A program made the position numbers and the translations under genes. Below, in pieces: positions 19,448 to 29,611 of a DNA stretch of 32,061 nucleotides. Each line of letters starts with the position of its first letter. Positions within the stretch are counted from its first letter, which is position 1. The notes beneath the pieces were generated by a model. The model searched no databases. It was not told the DNA's origin and was given only the letters and a program-made list of their open reading frames with translations. Source of the DNA: a virus; the IMG/VR virus record IMGVR_UViG_3300047378_000262, positions 1 through 32,061 of that record. The stretch is one strand, 5' to 3'.

Positions 19448-19864
19448 TTATATGTAACACCTTTTATATAACTCTTCTTCACGTTTGTATGCTTCACGTT
19501 CCCATGGAGCATTATCATAGCTATAGTTACGTGGTTTCTTACCCTTCCATGACATACTATAACCACATAGTTCGCCACGTAAGTACTGTTTTGCATGAAC
19601 CATTTCATGAGCAAGAGTTTGCATTATCTCTTCATACGGAAGCTTTTCACCCTGAGATTTACGTGCTATAGACATATCAACGTAACCTTCTTTTGGATCT
19701 CCCCAGCATAATCCTTGACTATCATGATCAAGAGTAGTCTTAAAAGTAATAAAAATTACCTTAGAATACATACGGTTAATACCAAGCTCTTTACAGAGAA
19801 GATGTGCATACGCATGGACTTTCTTCTTGTCTTTGATCTGACCTTTGATTACTATTTGTGGCAT
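19448..19864 (-). CDS. Phage zinc metallopeptidase with HExxH motif
   Basis: 138 residues. The zinc motif is H86-E87-M-V-H90 in TLAHEMVHAKQYLRGELCGY, with a downstream glutamate candidate in PWEREAYKREEE (E122/E124), as expected for small gluzincin-type or SprT-like peptidases. The WKG segment and the closing ERE-AY pattern occur in phage and bacterial proteins of this shape. It has no signal peptide, so it acts in the cytoplasm. Target unknown; it may process phage or host proteins. Own promoter upstream at 19891-19919. Confidence 0.8.
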   Translation of the reverse strand: MPQIVIKGQIKDKKKVHAYAHLLCKELGINRMYSKVIFITFKTTLDHDSQGLCWGDPKEGYVDMSIARKSQGEKLPYEEIMQTLAHEMVHAKQYLRGELCGYSMSWKGKKPRNYSYDNAPWEREAYKREEELYKRCYI

Positions 19865-19959: not shown

Positions 19960-21804
19960 CTATAACTTTGGTGAATAAATGGTTATAAGCTCTTCTTTGC
20001 CCTTTACCTTGATTTTACCTATTTCCTTGCACTTATACTCATCCGGAAGCTGTTCTTGAGTATATGATGATATGATTGTTTTATAGTCTACATACTCATG
20101 TCGTGCGGCAGTTGCCTCGAGACGGGCTGCAAGGTTGACTGCATCTCCAATGACTGAGTAATCGAATCTGGATTCAGAGCCCATGTTACCAACAATGCAA
20201 TCCCCGGTGTTAACGCCAGTACCGACATTAATATCAGGAAGACCTCTTGATTTATATACCTCTTTAAGTTCATTAGTTTTAGCCTCTATTTCAATTGATG
20301 ATTTGACTGCCATTTCAGCATGGTTATCACAAGGCAATGGTGCATTCCAGAATGCCATGATACAGTCGCCCATGTATTTGTCTATGGTTCCACCGTTGTT
20401 TAATATGATTTTAGTCATAGCATCAAGGAATTCATTAACCAATTCTACTAATCCTTCTGGATCGTCATTGTTTTTATAGTGCTCTGATATTGGAGTAAAC
20501 CCACATATATCCATAAACAAGAAAGACATCTCTTTACGATCTCCTCCTAATCTTAACAACTCAGGATTCTTTTGTAGTAGATACACCTGCTTCGGATCTA
20601 AGTAAGTTTCAAATTGCTTTTTAATCTGTTGTCTTAACATGAATTGCTTATAGAAATTACTAAAGCTTGATGAAGCAAAGGTAATGATATATAATATCAT
20701 TGAGTAAGTCATATCAAGGAGAATCTGAGATTCGTACCAGAAGTAGAAAGAAGCGCCAACTGAAGATGCAACAGTCGCAAAGAAGATTATCATGGACCAA
20801 ACAATTGGAAGGTGGTATACAGCTAAGACGATTACCAGAGCACCAATTGACATTACCAGGATTTCAAGAAGGTCTGTCCACACAGGACGAGAGATTGAAA
20901 CTTCATCCATTATCGACTGAATGGCGGCAGCCTGAATCTGATGAGCAGGCATTAATCCAGCTGGAGTTGGAATTTGTGAAGCCAGACCTTTTGCAGTCAG
21001 ACCAATAAAAACAGCTTGGCCACCGAGATTTGGTAACTCACTGCCGTATTCTATCTCTGTAAATTTATAGTTAGGATTAATCCAAAAAGAACCATTCGCA
21101 TCTGAAGGTATTCTAAAAGGTCTTATTATAACTTCTTCAACACCTACCTCATTTACTTTTATCGTATAAGATAACCTATCTTGCATAACTCTTATTGTTT
21201 CTAATGCGAACGAAGGGTATAGTTTATCATCTATTTGAGACACAAGGGGAATTCTTCTTACTAATCCATCAACCTCTGGCATAGCATTAATTAAACCGTG
21301 TCCCCATGCTTCCTTCTCTAATTGAGGTATATTAGTAACAAGGCCGTCGTATTTAATTAACCAGTCTAATGGATCTCCAGAACCAAATGTAGCAGTACCA
21401 ACATAAGGTGCCGTTTTACTTCTACCATCCGGATCAGCGTCTTGAGCGAGTATAACACCATTTGAGTTTATCCACGAAGCAAATACTTCATCGCCAGCAA
21501 ACCTATCAGCTTCTGGAAACATAATAGTAAATCCTATCATTCCCGCATTTGCTTCTCGTAAGTCTGATAACATTTGAGCGTATTGATGTCTTGGGAAAGG
21601 ATATTGACCATACTTAGCAAGTGCTTCTTCGCCAATATTGAGTAAGACTACTCCATTACCAAAATCAGTTTCTGGAATAGTTCTTATATAACTGTCAAAA
21701 GTGTTAAGTCTTAATTGTTCTACTGGAGTTGGATCTGACACTCTTATACCGATAAGCAAAGAGGCTAATATGATTGTGGTCCATATTGATGTTAAGTATT
21801 TCAT
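19960..21804 (-). CDS. CHASE2-domain class III adenylate cyclase
   Basis: 614 residues. An N-terminal membrane helix (7-22) is followed by a periplasmic CHASE2 domain (about 30-305; VVLLNIGEEALAKYGQYPFP, FIMFPEADR-like motif at 93-101, DGLVRRIPLV), three more membrane helices (about 312-330, 334-357, 362-382), a linker helix and a C-terminal class III cyclase domain (425-614). Catalytic residues are complete: metal ligands D432 (MDICGFT) and D480 (DKYMGD), adenine-type K476, and N557/R561 in VIGDAVNLAARLE; S550 sits at the second base-recognition position. It should make cAMP in response to a periplasmic signal. Last gene of the late run, 79 bases after the curlin gene. A phage-encoded full-length sensor cyclase is highly unusual. 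Confidence 0.93.
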   Translation of the reverse strand: MKYLTSIWTTIILASLLIGIRVSDPTPVEQLRLNTFDSYIRTIPETDFGNGVVLLNIGEEALAKYGQYPFPRHQYAQMLSDLREANAGMIGFTIMFPEADRFAGDEVFASWINSNGVILAQDADPDGRSKTAPYVGTATFGSGDPLDWLIKYDGLVTNIPQLEKEAWGHGLINAMPEVDGLVRRIPLVSQIDDKLYPSFALETIRVMQDRLSYTIKVNEVGVEEVIIRPFRIPSDANGSFWINPNYKFTEIEYGSELPNLGGQAVFIGLTAKGLASQIPTPAGLMPAHQIQAAAIQSIMDEVSISRPVWTDLLEILVMSIGALVIVLAVYHLPIVWSMIIFFATVASSVGASFYFWYESQILLDMTYSMILYIITFASSSFSNFYKQFMLRQQIKKQFETYLDPKQVYLLQKNPELLRLGGDRKEMSFLFMDICGFTPISEHYKNNDDPEGLVELVNEFLDAMTKIILNNGGTIDKYMGDCIMAFWNAPLPCDNHAEMAVKSSIEIEAKTNELKEVYKSRGLPDINVGTGVNTGDCIVGNMGSESRFDYSVIGDAVNLAARLEATAARHEYVDYKTIISSYTQEQLPDEYKCKEIGKIKVKGKEELITIYSPKL

Positions 21805-21883: not shown

Positions 21884-22654
21884 TCACTCTTGTGTTACTG
21901 ATACATTACATCCACCAAAAGTCATACAATCAATGCTTAGACTATATGTTTGGTTCATAGTACTCATTTGTTTTAAAATTAAATCTGTTCCGTATAAACC
22001 ATCAAGTGTTACGTTTGCGTTGTGTGTTGCACCGTTACCTTTTTGACGAATAAACACATCGTTCTCGTCATTATATATTGTTAAATCTGTGTTCTTACTA
22101 CCGTTGCTTTGTTGCTTTATTTGAACTTTATTATTATCGCCTGCTAAGTGTAAATCAAAGTCATGGCCATCCGATGCACCAGTTTGGTTTGTTTGTTGAA
22201 CTGCTAATTGATTATAGTCACCGTACATAGTAATATCTATTTCGTGACCACCACTTTCATAGTTATCCACCCACCAAGTTAAATCAGTATCAGAATCAAG
22301 TGTAGTCCATGCAGCACCTTGAGCAAGTTTCATCTGATTACCTGTTCCACTTAATTCATCAAAAGTGATTTCATTAGGAAGTCCGCCTGTTGTTGTATTG
22401 ATCTGGACCAAATACATATCTAGGCTTGATACTGTAATATATGAATTTCCATCTAGCATCTCAATAGTATTATTATAACCATATTGATCAACACCTAATT
22501 GAAGGTTATCGCCAGATTGTTCTAATGATATTACGTTATCATCAGCATTTGCAAATAGTGGTGCTACAAGTAGCGACAATACGATAATAGGCCAAAATAA
22601 AACACTTAACCATATTAAAGCTTTCATTGAATATTCTTCTAATTTATCTAACAT
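21884..22654 (-). CDS. Curlin-repeat (amyloid) secreted protein, paralogue 1
   Basis: 256 residues from ATG at 22654 (AGGTG eight bases before). The signal segment is ALIWLSVLFWPIIVLSLLVA with cleavage after FANA (about 36). Then a curlin repeat: NVISLEQSGDNLQLGVDQYG-type, followed by about four degenerate units of the form hydrophobic-x-hydrophobic...GD-N-x-(V/L)-x-(I/V)-x-Q (MYGDYNQLAVQQ, LAGDNNKVQIKQ, DENDVFIRQ). The pattern of Q/N at the strand ends is that of CsgA/CsgB. A C-x5-C pair (CMTFGGC) lies near the C-terminus. Likely exported by the Csg pore encoded two genes upstream and assembled as fibre on the cell surface. It shares the first repeat and C-x5-C with the gene at 23719. Confidence 0.8.
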   Translation of the reverse strand: MLDKLEEYSMKALIWLSVLFWPIIVLSLLVAPLFANADDNVISLEQSGDNLQLGVDQYGYNNTIEMLDGNSYITVSSLDMYLVQINTTTGGLPNEITFDELSGTGNQMKLAQGAAWTTLDSDTDLTWWVDNYESGGHEIDITMYGDYNQLAVQQTNQTGASDGHDFDLHLAGDNNKVQIKQQSNGSKNTDLTIYNDENDVFIRQKGNGATHNANVTLDGLYGTDLILKQMSTMNQTYSLSIDCMTFGGCNVSVTQE

Positions 22655-22655
22655 A

Positions 22656-23765
22656 TTAATTCACCTGATTTATATAGATAAGGATATCTTCACCCTCATT
22701 TCCTGTAATTATTCCGTCCCATGTTGGTGTAATTGTATCTACTGTAAAGTTGCCGCCTGCTCCAAATTTAAGTCTAATCACGCCATTAATGTTTCTATAT
22801 AATACTAAAGATCCATCTTGTAAAAACACATTAAACTGTGATTCATCATTAAATCCTCTTGCCGCACCTTTAATATTAAATTCACCTAATGTATCGAATA
22901 GATCTGAACTATCTATAATGTCCAATACATCAACTAAAAACTCTACATCTAGTTCATCAATATCTAATTCACTGAATTCGTCAAGAGTATCTTCTTCTAA
23001 TTCGTCTTCTTCTAACTCAGTAAACTCTAAAAAATCTATATCCAATAGGCCTTGATCTTCATTCGTATCATCAGCCATTTCTTCTTTTATCCTCTCCTTT
23101 ACTTCTTCAGGAGGTGATACAATAAACATGTTGTCAATTAATGATGGTGTAATACCGTTAACTTTAATTGATTGTGTTGGTGATGAATCTAATGAAGATA
23201 CCATTGTTGCGGCATAGGCTTCGTTTAATGTAACTACTCCACCTTCGTTAGAAACTACTATCTCGCCAGATGGATCACCATTTTCATCTGGTAGCAGAAT
23301 AATTAGGCTTCTACCTAACTCATCTACAGTTGTTGTAAAATCAGTTCCCCGTACGGCAATTGAGGCCGTAGGAGTCTTGATATCAATATTGGCTTTATTT
23401 ACTAATCCTAATCTTCCGGATGCAAATCTTGCCGTTCCCATTGTAAACTTCATACTCATTTTTGAGAGCGAAGGATCAGGGTCATAATATATTTCGTCTA
23501 TTAGTACTTCAGAATGCTCTTTTAAAGATAATTGAGCCTTATCTAAAAACTCAATAAGCATTCTTCCGTTACCAGTTTTTGCTTCATCATTTAATTCGAT
23601 AGGTATCTGATTAGATACTTTTATCTCTTCATTATTACGCACAATCTGGCTTACGCCAGTTGACTCTACTATGTCACCAATGGAATCAGCATAAGTGATT
23701 CCAGAGATGAATAGTAAGCTAAGAATCCCCAGCTGCGTCTTTTTGATTGATTTGTACAGTAGCAT
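22656..23765 (-). CDS. Secreted FecR-domain protein
   Basis: 369 residues. Signal peptide about 1-26 (GILSLLFISGITYADS). The FecR-type domain (about 35-150) has the motif KTPTASIAVRGTDFTTTVDE with a preceding GRMLIEFLDKAQLSLKE region. It is followed by an acidic stretch (about 225-290, E/D/L repeats such as FTELEEDELEEDTLDEFSEL) and a beta-rich C-terminus. Unlike the membrane anti-sigma FecR proteins it has no transmembrane helix after the signal, so a soluble periplasmic role, perhaps as a ligand for the CHASE2 domain of the cyclase, is likely; FecR and CHASE2 genes often neighbour each other in bacteria (recollection). The start overlaps the upstream curlin gene by 47 bases with no clear ribosome site. 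Confidence 0.82.
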   Translation of the reverse strand: MLLYKSIKKTQLGILSLLFISGITYADSIGDIVESTGVSQIVRNNEEIKVSNQIPIELNDEAKTGNGRMLIEFLDKAQLSLKEHSEVLIDEIYYDPDPSLSKMSMKFTMGTARFASGRLGLVNKANIDIKTPTASIAVRGTDFTTTVDELGRSLIILLPDENGDPSGEIVVSNEGGVVTLNEAYAATMVSSLDSSPTQSIKVNGITPSLIDNMFIVSPPEEVKERIKEEMADDTNEDQGLLDIDFLEFTELEEDELEEDTLDEFSELDIDELDVEFLVDVLDIIDSSDLFDTLGEFNIKGAARGFNDESQFNVFLQDGSLVLYRNINGVIRLKFGAGGNFTVDTITPTWDGIITGNEGEDILIYINQVN

Positions 23766-24459
23766 TGTCTGATGTAATATCTAGATTGATGATAGCATTA
23801 GGAGTTGCACAAGGTGAACCTCCTACACAAGTACCTGAAATCTGATTAATATCAATGTCACCACTATCTCCATTCCACTCTACAGTTAATGATTGAGAAC
23901 CATCGTTTTGTAATGTGTTAAAGTTATTGCTGTCACCAGTAATATCAAAGTTCCAAGTTACATCATCAGATTCGAAATCTAAATCAAATATATTTGAACT
24001 ACCTAACAGAATTAAATCTGCATCTAATCTTTCTGCACTTGCACCAACTTTACCTTGATCTATATCAAATGTGTTACTGTCTCCAGTAATAGCAAAATCA
24101 TAGTTAGAATCGTCTGAGCTTCCAGTATATCCAATGTTCCAATCAACTTCGTTAGAATCGCCTGTTAACGCAAAAGTTAAATCAGAGTTATTCATATCAA
24201 TTGGTCCATATATCAAGTTTTGATTTCCTATCATGTCGATATCAAAAGTCAAACCTGAACCCACAATTGTCATATCAGAACCTGAACTAGAAAAATCGTC
24301 TAAACCGATTTTGTTACCATATCCAACCTGATCAATATACAACGTTAATGTATCACCGCTTTGTTCTATCATAATTTCATTATCGTCAGTTGCTTGTGCG
24401 AAAACAGAATTTGCTGTAAATAGAAATAGCACTGTTGCTATACTAATTAATTTATTCAT
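23719..24459 (-). CDS. Curlin-repeat (amyloid) secreted protein, paralogue 2
   Basis: 246 residues. Signal peptide about 1-22 (LISIATVLFLFTANSVFA). The first mature unit NEIMIEQSGDTLTLYIDQVG matches paralogue 1. Then repeats of the form F-x-ITGDSN-x-(F/V)-D-(I/W) occur about six times (ALTGDSNEVDW, AITGDSNTFDID, LLGSSNIFDLD, DITGDSNNFNTL, WNGDSGDIDINQ, ITSDNATVQINQ). A C-x5-C pair (CVGGSPC) precedes the last repeat. Acidic and glycine/asparagine rich, without other domains. Overlaps csgG by eight bases, so it is translationally coupled to it. Most likely the cargo for CsgG export. Confidence 0.82.
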   Translation of the reverse strand: MNKLISIATVLFLFTANSVFAQATDDNEIMIEQSGDTLTLYIDQVGYGNKIGLDDFSSSGSDMTIVGSGLTFDIDMIGNQNLIYGPIDMNNSDLTFALTGDSNEVDWNIGYTGSSDDSNYDFAITGDSNTFDIDQGKVGASAERLDADLILLGSSNIFDLDFESDDVTWNFDITGDSNNFNTLQNDGSQSLTVEWNGDSGDIDINQISGTCVGGSPCATPNAIINLDITSDNATVQINQKDAAGDS

Positions 24460-25408
24460 TTATCGTTTCCTCTTTGTTTGCATGCCTTTCGTTTTTCCCA
24501 TCAACTTGATGAGGATGCCTATGGCCTGCGGTTAAATCCCAGAACTTACGGTCGTGGCCCTGGTAGATTAATTCCAGTACAGCAGCCTCAATAGCTGACC
24601 GTACTGCATACGTCACTGACTCATTATTTCCCACTCCGTCCTCATACTCGATAAGTTGCGTGCCTTGTTCATAGAACCTAAACACATCACCCGACGAGCC
24701 GTAAGAAAGTACCGATTTCTTAGCTTGGACGTTTAACAAAACTTCACCTGTCAATACAGACACTGCTCTCACAGATACTGTAACAACATCTTTACGATAC
24801 ATCCTACTAAAACCAACGCCGAGAGTTCTTGCACCTCGGCCTCCAGTTTCCATATTCGTATCATAACCTATAATACCACCCTCAATAATCATTCCTGCAA
24901 ATAAGAGTGGGCCAACACCATTTGGTTCTACACCATTAGCTTTAGCGACATCTTGACGAGTAGATCTTACTATTTGTCTTTCTCGTACAAGATTGTCTAT
25001 TCCTTGCCTTTCTACTACTCTAAACCAGGTTCCTCCACCTGCTGTTTTGAGAGCATCTATTAACATTTCAGTACCGCCTTGGGTAACTGCAGTAGAAAAC
25101 GATGCTATATTATCTACTGATTTTCTTTGACCTGTTAAATCTTTAAATCCATACACTGCAACTACTGGTTGAACCTTTGCTGCCGGCAAATTAAGAAGAT
25201 CTACAAACGCTGGAAGCTTTACAGCTTCTGGGGCATCAACACATATATACTTTCTGGCCATTGCCTTTTGTATGCCCATTTGTGCGTGTCTATTAAAGCC
25301 TTCATCATATTTGCCATTAAGATCATTACAATCCTGTGGGTTATCACTCCACTGTGGAACAGATGCGCATCCACTAAGCAGTAATAATACTAATAGATAC
25401 TTACCCAC
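24452..25408 (-). CDS. csgG: CsgG, curli outer-membrane secretion pore lipoprotein
   Basis: About 318 residues from GTG at 25408, with AGGA eight bases upstream; an alternative TTG at 25426 adds six residues and has weaker support. Lipobox LLLLSGC with acceptor C14. Matches to E. coli CsgG are clear: VERQGIDNLVRERQIVR, IEGGIIGYDTNMETGGRGAR, KSVLSYGSSGDVFRFYEQGT, and the C-terminal IYQGHDRKFWDL. The constriction segment is IASFSTAVT, keeping the Phe but replacing Tyr51 and Asn55 of E. coli by Asp and Ser (by my hand alignment). The mature N-terminus is about 45 residues longer, with two extra cysteines. It forms the nonameric outer-membrane channel for curlin. Overlaps csgF by eight bases. Confidence 0.93.
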   Translation of the reverse strand: MGKYLLVLLLLSGCASVPQWSDNPQDCNDLNGKYDEGFNRHAQMGIQKAMARKYICVDAPEAVKLPAFVDLLNLPAAKVQPVVAVYGFKDLTGQRKSVDNIASFSTAVTQGGTEMLIDALKTAGGGTWFRVVERQGIDNLVRERQIVRSTRQDVAKANGVEPNGVGPLLFAGMIIEGGIIGYDTNMETGGRGARTLGVGFSRMYRKDVVTVSVRAVSVLTGEVLLNVQAKKSVLSYGSSGDVFRFYEQGTQLIEYEDGVGNNESVTYAVRSAIEAAVLELIYQGHDRKFWDLTAGHRHPHQVDGKNERHANKEETINE

Positions 25409-25907
25409 CGTCTGAATCCTGGCCAAAGTTACCAGTTCCTACTGGTATCTCAATAACTGTAGTTGTTCCGTCGGAATCTACAATTGTCATTTTAATAAAC
25501 TCTGAACCATCTTCGTTTGTTATAACTTCATATGTTACTACATTACCTTCTAGTGTAAATGAACCGTATCGCACCGATCCATCGTTACTAAACATAGATT
25601 CGACAAGTTGTTTAGACATCTGAGCATATATTCTACTCTCTAAATTACGTATAAACTTGGCCATAGTTGTATTTGCTTCTTCTCTTTCAGCAGCTTTTCT
25701 TGCAGCTTCTAAAGCATCTACTATAGCCTTTTTTCTTGTATGTTCTATATTATCAATTGTTAAATAATGTGCTCCAGTTCCTACTCCACTAAATGATGGA
25801 TTTTTAAAGCCAAATTTAATTTCATCTGCTTGTACTACAAGGCTTTGTAAAGCCAATACAAATATTCCAGTTAATAATACGTCTTCAAGTTTTATCTTCA
25901 TCTTCAT
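25401..25907 (-). CDS. csgF: CsgF, curli secretion cap/nucleation accessory protein
   Basis: 168 residues. Signal peptide about 1-27 (LTGIFVLALQSLVVQA). The mature N-terminus FGFKNPSFSGVGTGAHYLTI is the CsgF signature (E. coli: FQFRNPNFGG...GAFLL), the segment that plugs into the CsgG beta-barrel neck. A charged coiled linker follows (KKAIVDALEAARKAAEREEA), then a beta C-terminal domain ending in glycine. In E. coli, CsgF couples the CsgG channel to the nucleator on the surface. Start at ATG 25907, overlapping the holin-like gene by 23 bases. Confidence 0.9.
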   Translation of the reverse strand: MKMKIKLEDVLLTGIFVLALQSLVVQADEIKFGFKNPSFSGVGTGAHYLTIDNIEHTRKKAIVDALEAARKAAEREEANTTMAKFIRNLESRIYAQMSKQLVESMFSNDGSVRYGSFTLEGNVVTYEVITNEDGSEFIKMTIVDSDGTTTVIEIPVGTGNFGQDSDGG

Positions 25908-26163
25908 TCTCTTTTATTTTCTTCTGCCTCTCTCTATATTCTAAAACAACCTTTACTTTTTCTTGCAGTCGTATCATATCTTGATCAAGCATTCTAATTT
26001 GATCAATTAGTCTTATAAGACCCATATGCATTTCTTCAAGTTTTGGATCTAGTTCTTCATTAATAAACTTCCATATGAAAAACACGAAATAAGCCATTCC
26101 TACAATGGCTACAGTCGTAAATCCGTACTGCTCGATTAAAACCGCGGGGTTTAAAGCATCCAT
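25885..26163 (-). CDS. Small membrane protein, holin-like (paralogue A)
   Basis: 92 residues. One membrane helix at about 12-32 (GFTTVAIVGMAYFVFFIWKF), then an amphipathic charged helix (LDPKLEEMHMGLIRLIDQIRM then DQDMIRLQEKVKVVLEY). The single-helix plus amphipathic-coil form resembles BhlA/UviB-like holins. It aligns without gaps with its neighbour at 26167. Location in a run with endolysin two genes upstream supports a lysis role, but I cannot prove holin function; it could be a spanin-like or sensor component. Confidence 0.6.
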   Translation of the reverse strand: MDALNPAVLIEQYGFTTVAIVGMAYFVFFIWKFINEELDPKLEEMHMGLIRLIDQIRMLDQDMIRLQEKVKVVLEYRERQKKIKENEDEDKT

Positions 26164-26708: not shown

Positions 26709-26720
26709 TCTTTTCTCCTA

Positions 26721-26912
26721 TTATAAACTTACTAAATTAAGCTCATTTAATGTTTTATGCCAGTCTGAATATCTAAAAAGACCTTGCTTTTCATGACACC
26801 AATACCAACCTTTACTTTCCTGTTCCTCTTGTGGAATACTAGATTCGACCTTTAAAGGGCCTCTAATCTTCCCATAAGTCTTTCTGCTCTGTTCGTTACT
26901 TGCTTGTACCAT
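26721..26912 (-). CDS. Small protein overlapping endolysin end, unknown
   Basis: 63 residues, ATG at 26912 with AAGGGAG nine bases upstream. Overlaps the last 61 bases of the endolysin in another frame. Content: basic start (KTYGKIRGPLK) and an aromatic block KGWYWCHEKQGLFRYSDWHK. The clear ribosome site and the tryptophan-rich domain argue it is real. A spanin or cell-wall binding role is possible but unproven. Confidence 0.5.
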   Translation of the reverse strand: MVQASNEQSRKTYGKIRGPLKVESSIPQEEQESKGWYWCHEKQGLFRYSDWHKTLNELNLVSL

Positions 26913-27322
26913 CTTGAATCTCTCCCTTCAACAGCCGCTACCGGCCAATCACCACATTGCAGCGCTGCGTTGTGTTTTTTAAATTTACTTAAGCGCGTAA
27001 GTCCCATGTTGAACATCATGTTCGCAATGACTTGTTTCACTTCTTGTGGATATCCATCCCACCCGTCGTGTAATTTTTTACAATCCTCGATTACTGTTTC
27101 TACATCCTTGGCAAAACATTTAATGACTCTATCCTCTGCCACTGGAGTACCGACCTCCAACCCATGTTCTGGGTCTCCTTCAAGTACCAAGTGTCCAATG
27201 CCAAATGTAGCATAACCGAGGTGATCATGATAAATTTCATTTACTTGTCCCTCGTCTATAATTAATTGTTCTCTTAACTGATCTACATCAATCACCGTTT
27301 TTTCTTCTTTATTCCAAAACAT
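26852..27322 (-). CDS. Endolysin, T4 lysozyme-type (GH24)
   Basis: 156 residues. Catalytic set of T4 lysozyme is in register: E24 (IIDEGQVNEIYHD), D33 and T39 (YATFGIGHLV), matching T4 E11, D20 and T26 with the same spacing. Later conserved parts are ANMMFNMGLTRLSKFKKHN and DSRWYKQVTNRAERL. It cleaves the peptidoglycan glycan strand. No signal peptide, so it relies on a holin to reach the wall. It lies at the head of the lysis-like section between the fibre genes and csgF. Confidence 0.92.
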   Translation of the reverse strand: MFWNKEEKTVIDVDQLREQLIIDEGQVNEIYHDHLGYATFGIGHLVLEGDPEHGLEVGTPVAEDRVIKCFAKDVETVIEDCKKLHDGWDGYPQEVKQVIANMMFNMGLTRLSKFKKHNAALQCGDWPVAAVEGRDSRWYKQVTNRAERLMGRLEAL

Positions 27323-28452: not shown

Positions 28453-29322
28453 TTAGAATATTACCTGTGCTTGCGCGGTTAAGTCAGCTTTAACGTATAC
28501 GTAGTATGTTGGTGAGCTAGCTTTAGTAAATGTGAATTTAAATATTGGATCAGCTGATACATACGAGCTTTGTTGTGAGATCGGGTAACCGCCATAAGCA
28601 TCAGCAAAACATTCAATATCTACCCTTAAAGTTTGAGGGGTAAAAGAGCTACTTGTTTGAACTGGTATTGTTGCAGTACCGGTATGTGTCCACAGATCTG
28701 TTCCGCTGTTATAGGTCAATGTATTAAAACCAGCCTTAGTCACACGAATTTCTGCATTACTAGTACCACCAGTAATACTTCCATTTTGATCTATTTCAAC
28801 TGCACATTTATATCCGCTATCAATACCTATAATTTCAATTGAAGGGTTGGGTGGGAAATCAGATGCACCAGTACCTAAAATAACTTGAGTTCCGTCTGGT
28901 TCGTAATAGCGATCGTCTTCATCAATTGCGAACCTTGCGTTCGCGACTGGTATAGCATGAATTCCAATATTTCCTGAAAGATTATAATATATATGAAACC
29001 TAGCCATAGCTTCAGCATCAGCTTGGTCTCCTGCTCCCGTCTCTGTAGATTCTGCTTGTGAGAAAATACCTCTACTTGGATTGCCGGTTTCATTACCTCT
29101 AACTGTAAAATCAGCATAGACTGCCGACCAAGCATGAAACTCTGACATATTATATGGCTCAGTTCCATTCGGAGTTCCGGTAATATCTACTCCGGTATAA
29201 TCGTCTGTCCCATTTACTGATAATCCTTTAAGACTTACGTGGGTTCTTACAGTAGTAGATCCTTGTTTTTCATTAAGAATATCTTGTAACGATATCTGAT
29301 TTGGTGAACTTGGTAGTGCCAT
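28453..29322 (-). CDS. Fibre-like virion protein with similar N-terminal tag
   Basis: 289 residues, beta-rich. N-terminus MALPSSPNQISLQDILNEKQ shares the ISL-x-DI-x2-E pattern with the protein at 27663. Then PYNMSEFHAWS and a jelly-roll-like run (GDQADAEAMARFHIYYNLSG, GYKCAVEIDQNGSITGGTSN). The TAATG overlap with the upstream gene couples it to the 87-residue protein. Tail-fibre or baseplate decoration role inferred from composition and location. Confidence 0.6.
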   Translation of the reverse strand: MALPSSPNQISLQDILNEKQGSTTVRTHVSLKGLSVNGTDDYTGVDITGTPNGTEPYNMSEFHAWSAVYADFTVRGNETGNPSRGIFSQAESTETGAGDQADAEAMARFHIYYNLSGNIGIHAIPVANARFAIDEDDRYYEPDGTQVILGTGASDFPPNPSIEIIGIDSGYKCAVEIDQNGSITGGTSNAEIRVTKAGFNTLTYNSGTDLWTHTGTATIPVQTSSSFTPQTLRVDIECFADAYGGYPISQQSSYVSADPIFKFTFTKASSPTYYVYVKADLTAQAQVIF

Positions 29323-29585
29323 TACTTAATAATCTCCGTAATTAAATCTTCGAATTGTTCTATTTTCTCGACTCTATTCGGCCATAAAATATATTCCTTT
29401 TCAGGATTCTTTTTTAAATTTGTTAAAAGGGGAAGTATAGAGTTGTAAAGCTTATTTAGCTTATCCTCTAATTCTTGTGCGGTTGCTGAAGCAGTTGATG
29501 CCTCAGTCTTTACTGATTGTACGGCTTCAAGCTCGTTTTCATCAACGGCTGTAAAACCAAAATCGAAATCTAATAAATCACTCAT
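29322..29585 (-). CDS. Small conserved virion protein, first gene of late run
   Basis: 87 residues. N-terminus MSDLLDFDFGFTAVDENELE, then a helical coiled region (ASATAQELEDKLNKLYNSIL) and KNPEKEYILWPNRVEKIEQF. I recognise this 'LDFDFGF ... LYNxIxPLLxNLxKNPEKxYIxWPNR' shape from other marine myoviruses, where it is listed as a structural protein of unknown role. AGGAG five bases before the ATG and a TATAAATA promoter at 29604-29611 make it the head of a late operon. Confidence 0.72.
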   Translation of the reverse strand: MSDLLDFDFGFTAVDENELEAVQSVKTEASTASATAQELEDKLNKLYNSILPLLTNLKKNPEKEYILWPNRVEKIEQFEDLITEIIK

Positions 29586-29603: not shown

Positions 29604-29611
29604 TATTTATA
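29604..29611 (-). promoter_or_regulatory. Late promoter (TATAAATA) starting the fibre-lysis-curli operon
   Basis: Exact TATAAATA on the minus strand, 18 bases before the ATG at 29585, with a GGAG between. Every gene from there to 19960 is tightly packed on the same strand, with a single gap above 12 bases (79 before the cyclase). Confidence 0.78.

Follow-up and report, generated by a model that had tools for sequence, protein, structure and literature searches.

Curli genes have been described in phages before. CsgF and CsgG were reported earlier (PMC7029224), and a full module that also holds a FecR-domain protein and an adenylate cyclase (AC) is known from pelagiphages of the Podoviridae and Myoviridae, where its genes are given as HK, CsgF, CsgG, CsgA/B, FecR, CsgA/B and AC (PMC9599517). 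According to the same paper, in whose text the string "chase" does not occur, FecR and AC lie outside bacterial T8SS operons. A role of CsgGF in lysis has been proposed for phage Melnitz (PMC9004378), and the role in ocean phages of curli genes, which are absent from the hosts, is considered an open question (PMC7029224, PMC9599517, PMC9004378). Among bacteria, the CHASE2 cyclases CyaD1, CyaD2 and CyaK of S. meliloti signal via the outer-membrane barrel NsrA to Clr (PMC13001267), and CyaD1 (SMc02176) adjoins the FecR-domain protein SMc02177 and Clr (PMC5498481). The CHASE2-cyclase clusters of Campylobacterota hold a FecR-domain outer-membrane protein (PMC9239204).

Phage Origin of the Contig

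The window, i.e., the whole stretch of 32,061 nucleotides that was analyzed, contains a gene for a membrane-bound receptor cyclase among genes that match the phage families gp6, gp25, gp53, hub, tube cap, gp4, gp2, tail tube, gp32, gp59 and exonuclease. The roles of these families comprise the baseplate wedge, hub, tube cap, head closure, DNA end protector, tail tube, gp32-type SSB, helicase loader and exonuclease; the contig is a genuine marine T4-like phage. Judged by gp6, Melnitz and HTVC008M come closest among the isolates, with only ~39% identity; judged by gp32, these are phage C48C1 and cyanophages (56–58% identity). The same gene block is found, at 99% identity, in a phage contig of 101 kb (L003).

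The probability that the gene belongs to a contaminating bacterial contig, or is a chance ORF, is negligible. Although the protein family stems from bacteria, T4-like structural and replication genes are found on both flanks, and the same block is present in the 101-kb contig as well as in the isolates HTVC008M and Melnitz. The tree of cyclases separates the phage and phage-like sequences, with full support, from 32 bacterial homologues. These observations refute the contamination reading. Placement inside a bacterial clade on a contaminating contig, the outcome against which the sequence-only reading had cautioned, was thus not observed, and its view that a receptor-type cyclase is encoded by a true phage is borne out, as dozens of phage contigs share the whole module. 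The homologue sets were limited to the 80 best candidates out of at least 600, and all trees were made by quick searches and rooted at the midpoint.

The top "bacterial" cyclase matches (L084, L085, L086 and L087) are filed in metagenome-assembled genomes (MAGs) of Saprospirales, Flavobacteriaceae, Sphingobacteriales and Synechococcus. They were rejected as bacterial: inspection revealed phage genes on L085–L087, L084 has the full module in phage order, and all four nest among the phages. Their placement in these MAGs is likely due to binning errors.

Organization of the Curli Module

The cyclase is the last gene of a curli (T8SS) module whose genes all lie on the minus strand, in the order TM2, TM1, CsgF, CsgG, curlin, FecR-domain protein, curlin and cyclase. 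The features of the window that are relevant here are as follows (coordinates, strand, description):

19960–21804, minus strand: CHASE2–3TM–class III adenylate cyclase (P0001, 614 aa); Pfam CHASE2 and Guanylate_cyc, catalytic residues, AlphaFold model matching CyaB/CyaC catalytic folds
21884–22654, minus strand: Cur2, second curlin-repeat protein (256 aa); weak Curlin_rpt match (E-value, 0.014), position conserved in phage loci, counterparts in HTVC008M and Melnitz
22656–23765, minus strand: FecR-domain protein (369 aa); Pfam FecR (E-value, 4e-8), top model match to the PupR cell-surface signalling domain (6ovk)
23719–24459, minus strand: Cur1, first curlin-repeat protein, CsgA/B-like (246 aa); Curlin_rpt (E-value, 1e-3), NCBIfam CsgA (E-value, 6e-5, below the cut-off)
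24452–25426, minus strand: CsgG, outer-membrane curli secretion pore (324 aa); Pfam CsgG (E-value, 2e-51)
25401–25907, minus strand: CsgF (168 aa); Pfam CsgF (E-value, 1e-13)
25885–26163, minus strand: TM1, small protein (92 aa) with one hydrophobic segment and a charged helix-like tail; phrog_18771 (E-value, 6e-25), conserved in phage modules
26167–26463, minus strand: TM2, small protein (98 aa), the first gene of the module in relatives; phrog_18771 (E-value, 3e-21)
29604–29611, minus strand: nearest exact T4-type late promoter motif TATAAATA upstream of the module in the window; exact match, precedes gene 29322–29585

A phage curli module with a cyclase as its last gene is already known. 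HTVC008M (KC465899) and Melnitz carry the module in the same order, and their last genes are annotated as "adenylate/guanylyl cyclase" and as cyclase, respectively. The receptor cyclase is therefore not the isolated surprise as which it had been presented from the sequence alone, but the last gene of the module described in PMC9599517. Compared with these pelagiphages, the genes and their order are the same, whereas the window virus is distant (gp6, as given above) and its cyclase shares 46.5% and 35.3% identity with those of HTVC008M and Melnitz, respectively.

One difference from the published module concerns the two genes before csgF, which have been read as histidine kinase genes (PMC9599517). 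No kinase domain was found in either product by Pfam and NCBIfam searches, and the proteins comprise 92 and 98 aa only, so that this reading was rejected for the window. TM1 and TM2 instead belong to one family (phrog_18771), each with one hydrophobic segment and a charged tail. The curlin repeats are weak in both curlin proteins of the window. In a set biased towards close relatives of the query, all 37 phage contigs that extend for more than 7 kb past CsgG carry the genes for FecR, the second curlin and the cyclase. The genes of the module mostly overlap in relatives, the sole gap (median, 125 bp) being that before the cyclase; in the window, this gap between the second curlin gene and the cyclase gene is only 80 bp.

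Architecture and Catalytic Residues of the Cyclase

The region 19960–21804 is open on the minus strand only, starts with ATG and encodes 614 aa. Pfam analysis revealed a CHASE2 domain at residues 16–324 (E-value, 4e-40) and a Guanylate_cyc domain at residues 424–608 (E-value, 1e-19). In the AlphaFold model (mean pLDDT 87, from a 39-row alignment; the structure-model alignments were built without two deposited phage records), four long helices (7–23, 309–331, 334–359 and 366–399) are located where expected: one precedes the CHASE2 domain, which has a mixed fold, three follow it, and the catalytic domain comes last. This is the layout of a CHASE2 receptor cyclase, with CHASE2 flanked by one N-terminal helix and by further helices. 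The four membrane helices given with the CHASE2 domain in the sequence-only reading are thus found in the model, while the hydropathy scan yielded only three clear membrane segments. The catalytic part of the model matches P. aeruginosa CyaB (TM 0.86 on target) and Spirulina CyaC.

Residues D432, K476, D480, S550, N557 and R561 are all found at the positions given by the sequence-only reading, among them the two metal-binding Asp (D432, D480), the transition-state Asn (N557) and the Arg (R561) of class III cyclases. A full-length class III cyclase with complete catalytic residues in a phage is thereby confirmed by the ORF, Pfam matches, residues and neighbouring genes, with the addition that it is encoded on the minus strand, which had not been stated. 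In an alignment of 88 phage and phage-like rows, which include a bacterial contig (L088) grouped with the phage-like ones, D432, K476, D480 and R561 are invariant (88/88), and the N557 column is changed only in Melnitz. S550 is present in 86 of these rows, the exceptions being Melnitz (Asp) and L088 (Thr), and in 74 out of 75 bacterial homologues.

The Ser at position 550 had been singled out for a test of ATP versus GTP preference. In the alignment, this Ser is the norm of the lineage, hardly varying among phage and bacterial relatives, and it was rejected as an oddity of specificity. The solved cyclases CyaB (3r5g) and CyaC (1wc1) resemble the window cyclase in catalytic fold and residues, differ from it in the sensory part, and have Lys at the K476 column and Thr, not Ser, at the S550 column. 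By contrast, Cya2 (2w01, titled guanylyl cyclase) has Glu and Gly at these columns. K476 and S550 conform to base recognition of the ATP type (Lys plus Asp, Thr or Ser). Because they correspond to the Lys/Thr of CyaB and CyaC, unlike the Glu/Gly of Cya2, the enzyme is expected to prefer ATP and to produce cAMP. Given the Thr/Ser exchange, we take the cyclase to belong to class IIIb.

The dN/dS values of the cyclase gene (0.03–0.13, unsaturated pairs) indicate that it is under purifying selection; together with the residues fixed in 88/88 rows, they place the ORF far from chance. Judging by these comparisons, the enzyme is probably active. In the cyclase of Melnitz EXVC039M (L083 9001–11049), Asp takes the place of S550 and Ser that of the catalytic N557, and a C-terminal tail of bacterial type is retained; this enzyme may be altered or inactive, and its activity is doubtful.

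A Bacterial Operon with the Same Parts

An operon composed of csgF, csgG, curlin, curlin, FecR and CHASE2-cyclase genes was found in two genomes assigned to Caulobacteraceae (L088/G020 and L297/G722), out of 299 Caulobacteraceae genomes sampled. Its positions, at different chromosomal sites, are:

L088:5992–12049: bacterial curli–cyclase operon
L297:12242–18262: bacterial curli–cyclase operon

L088 is part of a Caulobacteraceae-assigned MAG with 52–67% GC, in which glycosyltransferases, an S9 peptidase and a TonB receptor surround the operon. The G722 operon, inserted between unrelated chromosomal genes, shares 93% (cyclase, FecR) and 96% (CsgG) identity with that of L088. These two operons are counter-examples to the statement that FecR and AC are located outside bacterial T8SS operons (PMC9599517). 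All six gene types are shared with the phage module in nearly the same order, and in the midpoint-rooted quick tree the L088 cyclase branches as the fully supported sister of the phage cyclases as a whole. The tree of CsgG, which has long branches and a midpoint root, joins L088 and G722 to 23 of its 24 phage rows (support, 91). The bacterial operon differs in lacking TM1 and TM2, in having both curlins before FecR, and in a cyclase that keeps the C-terminal tail lost in most phages. The differing sites in the two genomes resemble those of a mobile cassette.

This cassette-like behavior bears on an alternative explanation, according to which the cyclase is active and late but unrelated to curli, its cAMP redirecting host metabolism or the CRP regulon, and the shared operon being a moving cassette. 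Besides the different chromosomal sites, it is in line with the lack of nearby curli genes at the CHASE2-cyclases of most bacteria found. Nevertheless, none of the 37 phage contigs with a sufficient flank departs from the linkage with CsgG, FecR and curlin, and the csgF–csgG–curlin–FecR–cyclase order also occurs in bacteria. Both observations argue against this explanation, which we regard as rather unlikely.

FecR-Domain Protein as a Candidate Partner

The FecR-domain protein of the module consists of an N-terminal helix resembling a signal peptide, the FecR domain, an acidic linker and a C-terminal beta domain, and its model is closest to the PupR cell-surface signalling domain (6ovk). It does not correspond to an anti-sigma regulator of the FecIRA type. 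No Pfam match to an anti-sigma domain was found in the protein, which has the signalling domain only, and no sigma factor or receptor was recognised among the neighbouring genes examined.

FecR genes were searched for around bacterial CHASE2-cyclases with profiles built from phage and bacterial matches, and genome-wide with PF04773. Among 54 bacterial loci with enough upstream flank, a FecR gene is found within 600 bp of the cyclase gene in 18, from several lineages, although about 11 of these 18 are from Thalassospira; in 31 of the 54, no FecR was detected in the fetched stretch. The number of FecR matches per genome is only 1–7, and in two genomes (G018 and G019) the sole match found adjoins the cyclase by coordinates. 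The recurrence of FecR genes beside CHASE2-cyclases across several lineages of bacteria suggests that the two proteins form a signalling pair, and a role of FecR as partner of the cyclase fits better than regulation by iron citrate.

The system of S. meliloti likewise combines CHASE2 receptor cyclases with a FecR gene beside cyaD1 and an outer-membrane protein upstream in the signal path. It differs in that curli genes are not described for it and that the gene for its cAMP receptor, Clr, is close by; the search of the phages yielded no cNMP-binding protein. In the reported tests, SMc02177 was dispensable for signal perception (PMC5498481), which counts against a partner role of FecR.

Late Promoter Motif

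Of 45 relatives, 27 (25 of the 43 distinct sequences) have an exact TATAAATA no more than 60 bp ahead of the gene that opens the module. The reverse strand yielded 0 occurrences, and composition shuffles averaged 0.4, with at most 4. Directly before the cyclase, it occurs in one of 76 loci, and a late motif at this position was rejected. CTAAATA showed no enrichment as a promoter motif, and sigma-70 promoters and terminators were at chance level. Directly before the module of this window, no exact TATAAATA was found. The nearest one (29604–29611) may serve as promoter of the minus-strand genes that run into the module, and a 144-base gap (26709–26851) lies between the two. The description of the locus as a late operon in the sequence-only reading thus gains comparative support, from relatives.

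The motif is also compatible with another explanation, in which the module, including the cyclase, would help to time lysis or to run a gated outer-membrane pore, a role suggested for CsgGF of Melnitz (PMC9004378); the cyclase would time or gate the pore. In addition to this published hypothesis and the late motif in relatives, a lysozyme gene (26852–27322) is located upstream on the same strand, and the module opens with two small proteins of one hydrophobic segment each. However, a simple pore would not need the curlin-repeat proteins and FecR, which are kept, and a link between cAMP and lysis is not established. This explanation appears improbable.

Proposed Function of the Module

The reading that we prefer, to which we give an even chance, is that the cyclase acts as a late-expressed sensor of the curli module that converts ATP to cAMP, with the FecR-domain protein as its periplasmic partner. 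The cyclase would be an inner-membrane receptor with an N-terminal helix, a periplasmic CHASE2 domain, three helices and a cytoplasmic class III catalytic domain of the homodimer type, which would convert ATP to cAMP. The module, from the two small membrane proteins to the cyclase, would be made late in infection; the secreted FecR-domain protein may address the CHASE2 domain from the periplasm, and, through cAMP, the pair may inform the cytoplasm of the condition of the curli pore, the fibres or the outer membrane. The suggestion made from the sequence alone that cAMP would be raised on a periplasmic cue is plausible. The direct basis of this reading consists of the domains, residues, purifying selection, synteny, the late motif in relatives, the bacterial FecR–CHASE2 neighbourhood and the two-genome operon, from which we infer enzymatic activity, contact between FecR and CHASE2, the nature of the signal, a receptor for cAMP and an advantage for the phage.

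A phage-encoded cAMP receptor was rejected, as no cNMP-binding protein (PF00027) was found in nine module-bearing phage records, including the complete HTVC008M and Melnitz; therefore, any cAMP receptor must be that of the host. A CRP-type regulator of the host would be the likely downstream target. Nothing useful on cAMP receptors in SAR11 was found in the literature.

Class III cyclases are used in bacterial defence too, and the cyclic nucleotide might interfere with nucleotide-signalling defence of the host as a decoy or by receptor competition. The receptor-type anchor, late-promoter motif and curli/FecR linkage are ill-suited to such a role, and K476 and S550 point to conversion of ATP to cAMP; counter-defence is very unlikely.

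Extending the preferred reading of a curli-linked sensor cyclase, the phage may encode a complete trans-envelope circuit, in which the curli pore and fibres are made late, FecR reads their state and the CHASE2 cyclase turns it into cAMP in the dying cell, the whole being a ready-made operon taken from, or exchanged with, alphaproteobacteria. We propose this tentatively, as possible but somewhat doubtful.

Compared with the main texts of the papers searched, the FecR–cyclase pairing, the late-promoter motif before the module and the bacterial six-gene operon appear to be new. The advance over the known module lies in a more precise statement of its regulation and likely partner protein. With FecR and cyclase as a pair of bacterial type, a late motif and a bacterial operon, the question of the phage curli genes becomes one of specific tests, and both the iron-regulation reading of phage FecR and the claimed absence of FecR and cyclase from bacterial curli operons are called into question.

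Other Genes of the Region

Upstream of the curli module, the gene at 26852–27322 encodes a T4-type lysozyme (Pfam Phage_lysozyme; E-value, 5e-6). Downstream of the cyclase, the gene at 19448–19864 encodes a putative small metallopeptidase (SprT/M91-like, HEMVH motif). In several relatives, an extra small membrane-type protein (85–91 aa, with an end like ...ELAYIALPMSVLAFYGLSIYAIFKYIQRKFS) is encoded between the second curlin and the cyclase; it is located at L010:1108–1374, L011:7077–7343, L019:590–856, L032:8721–8978, L057:3844–4104 and L086:9726–10001, among others.
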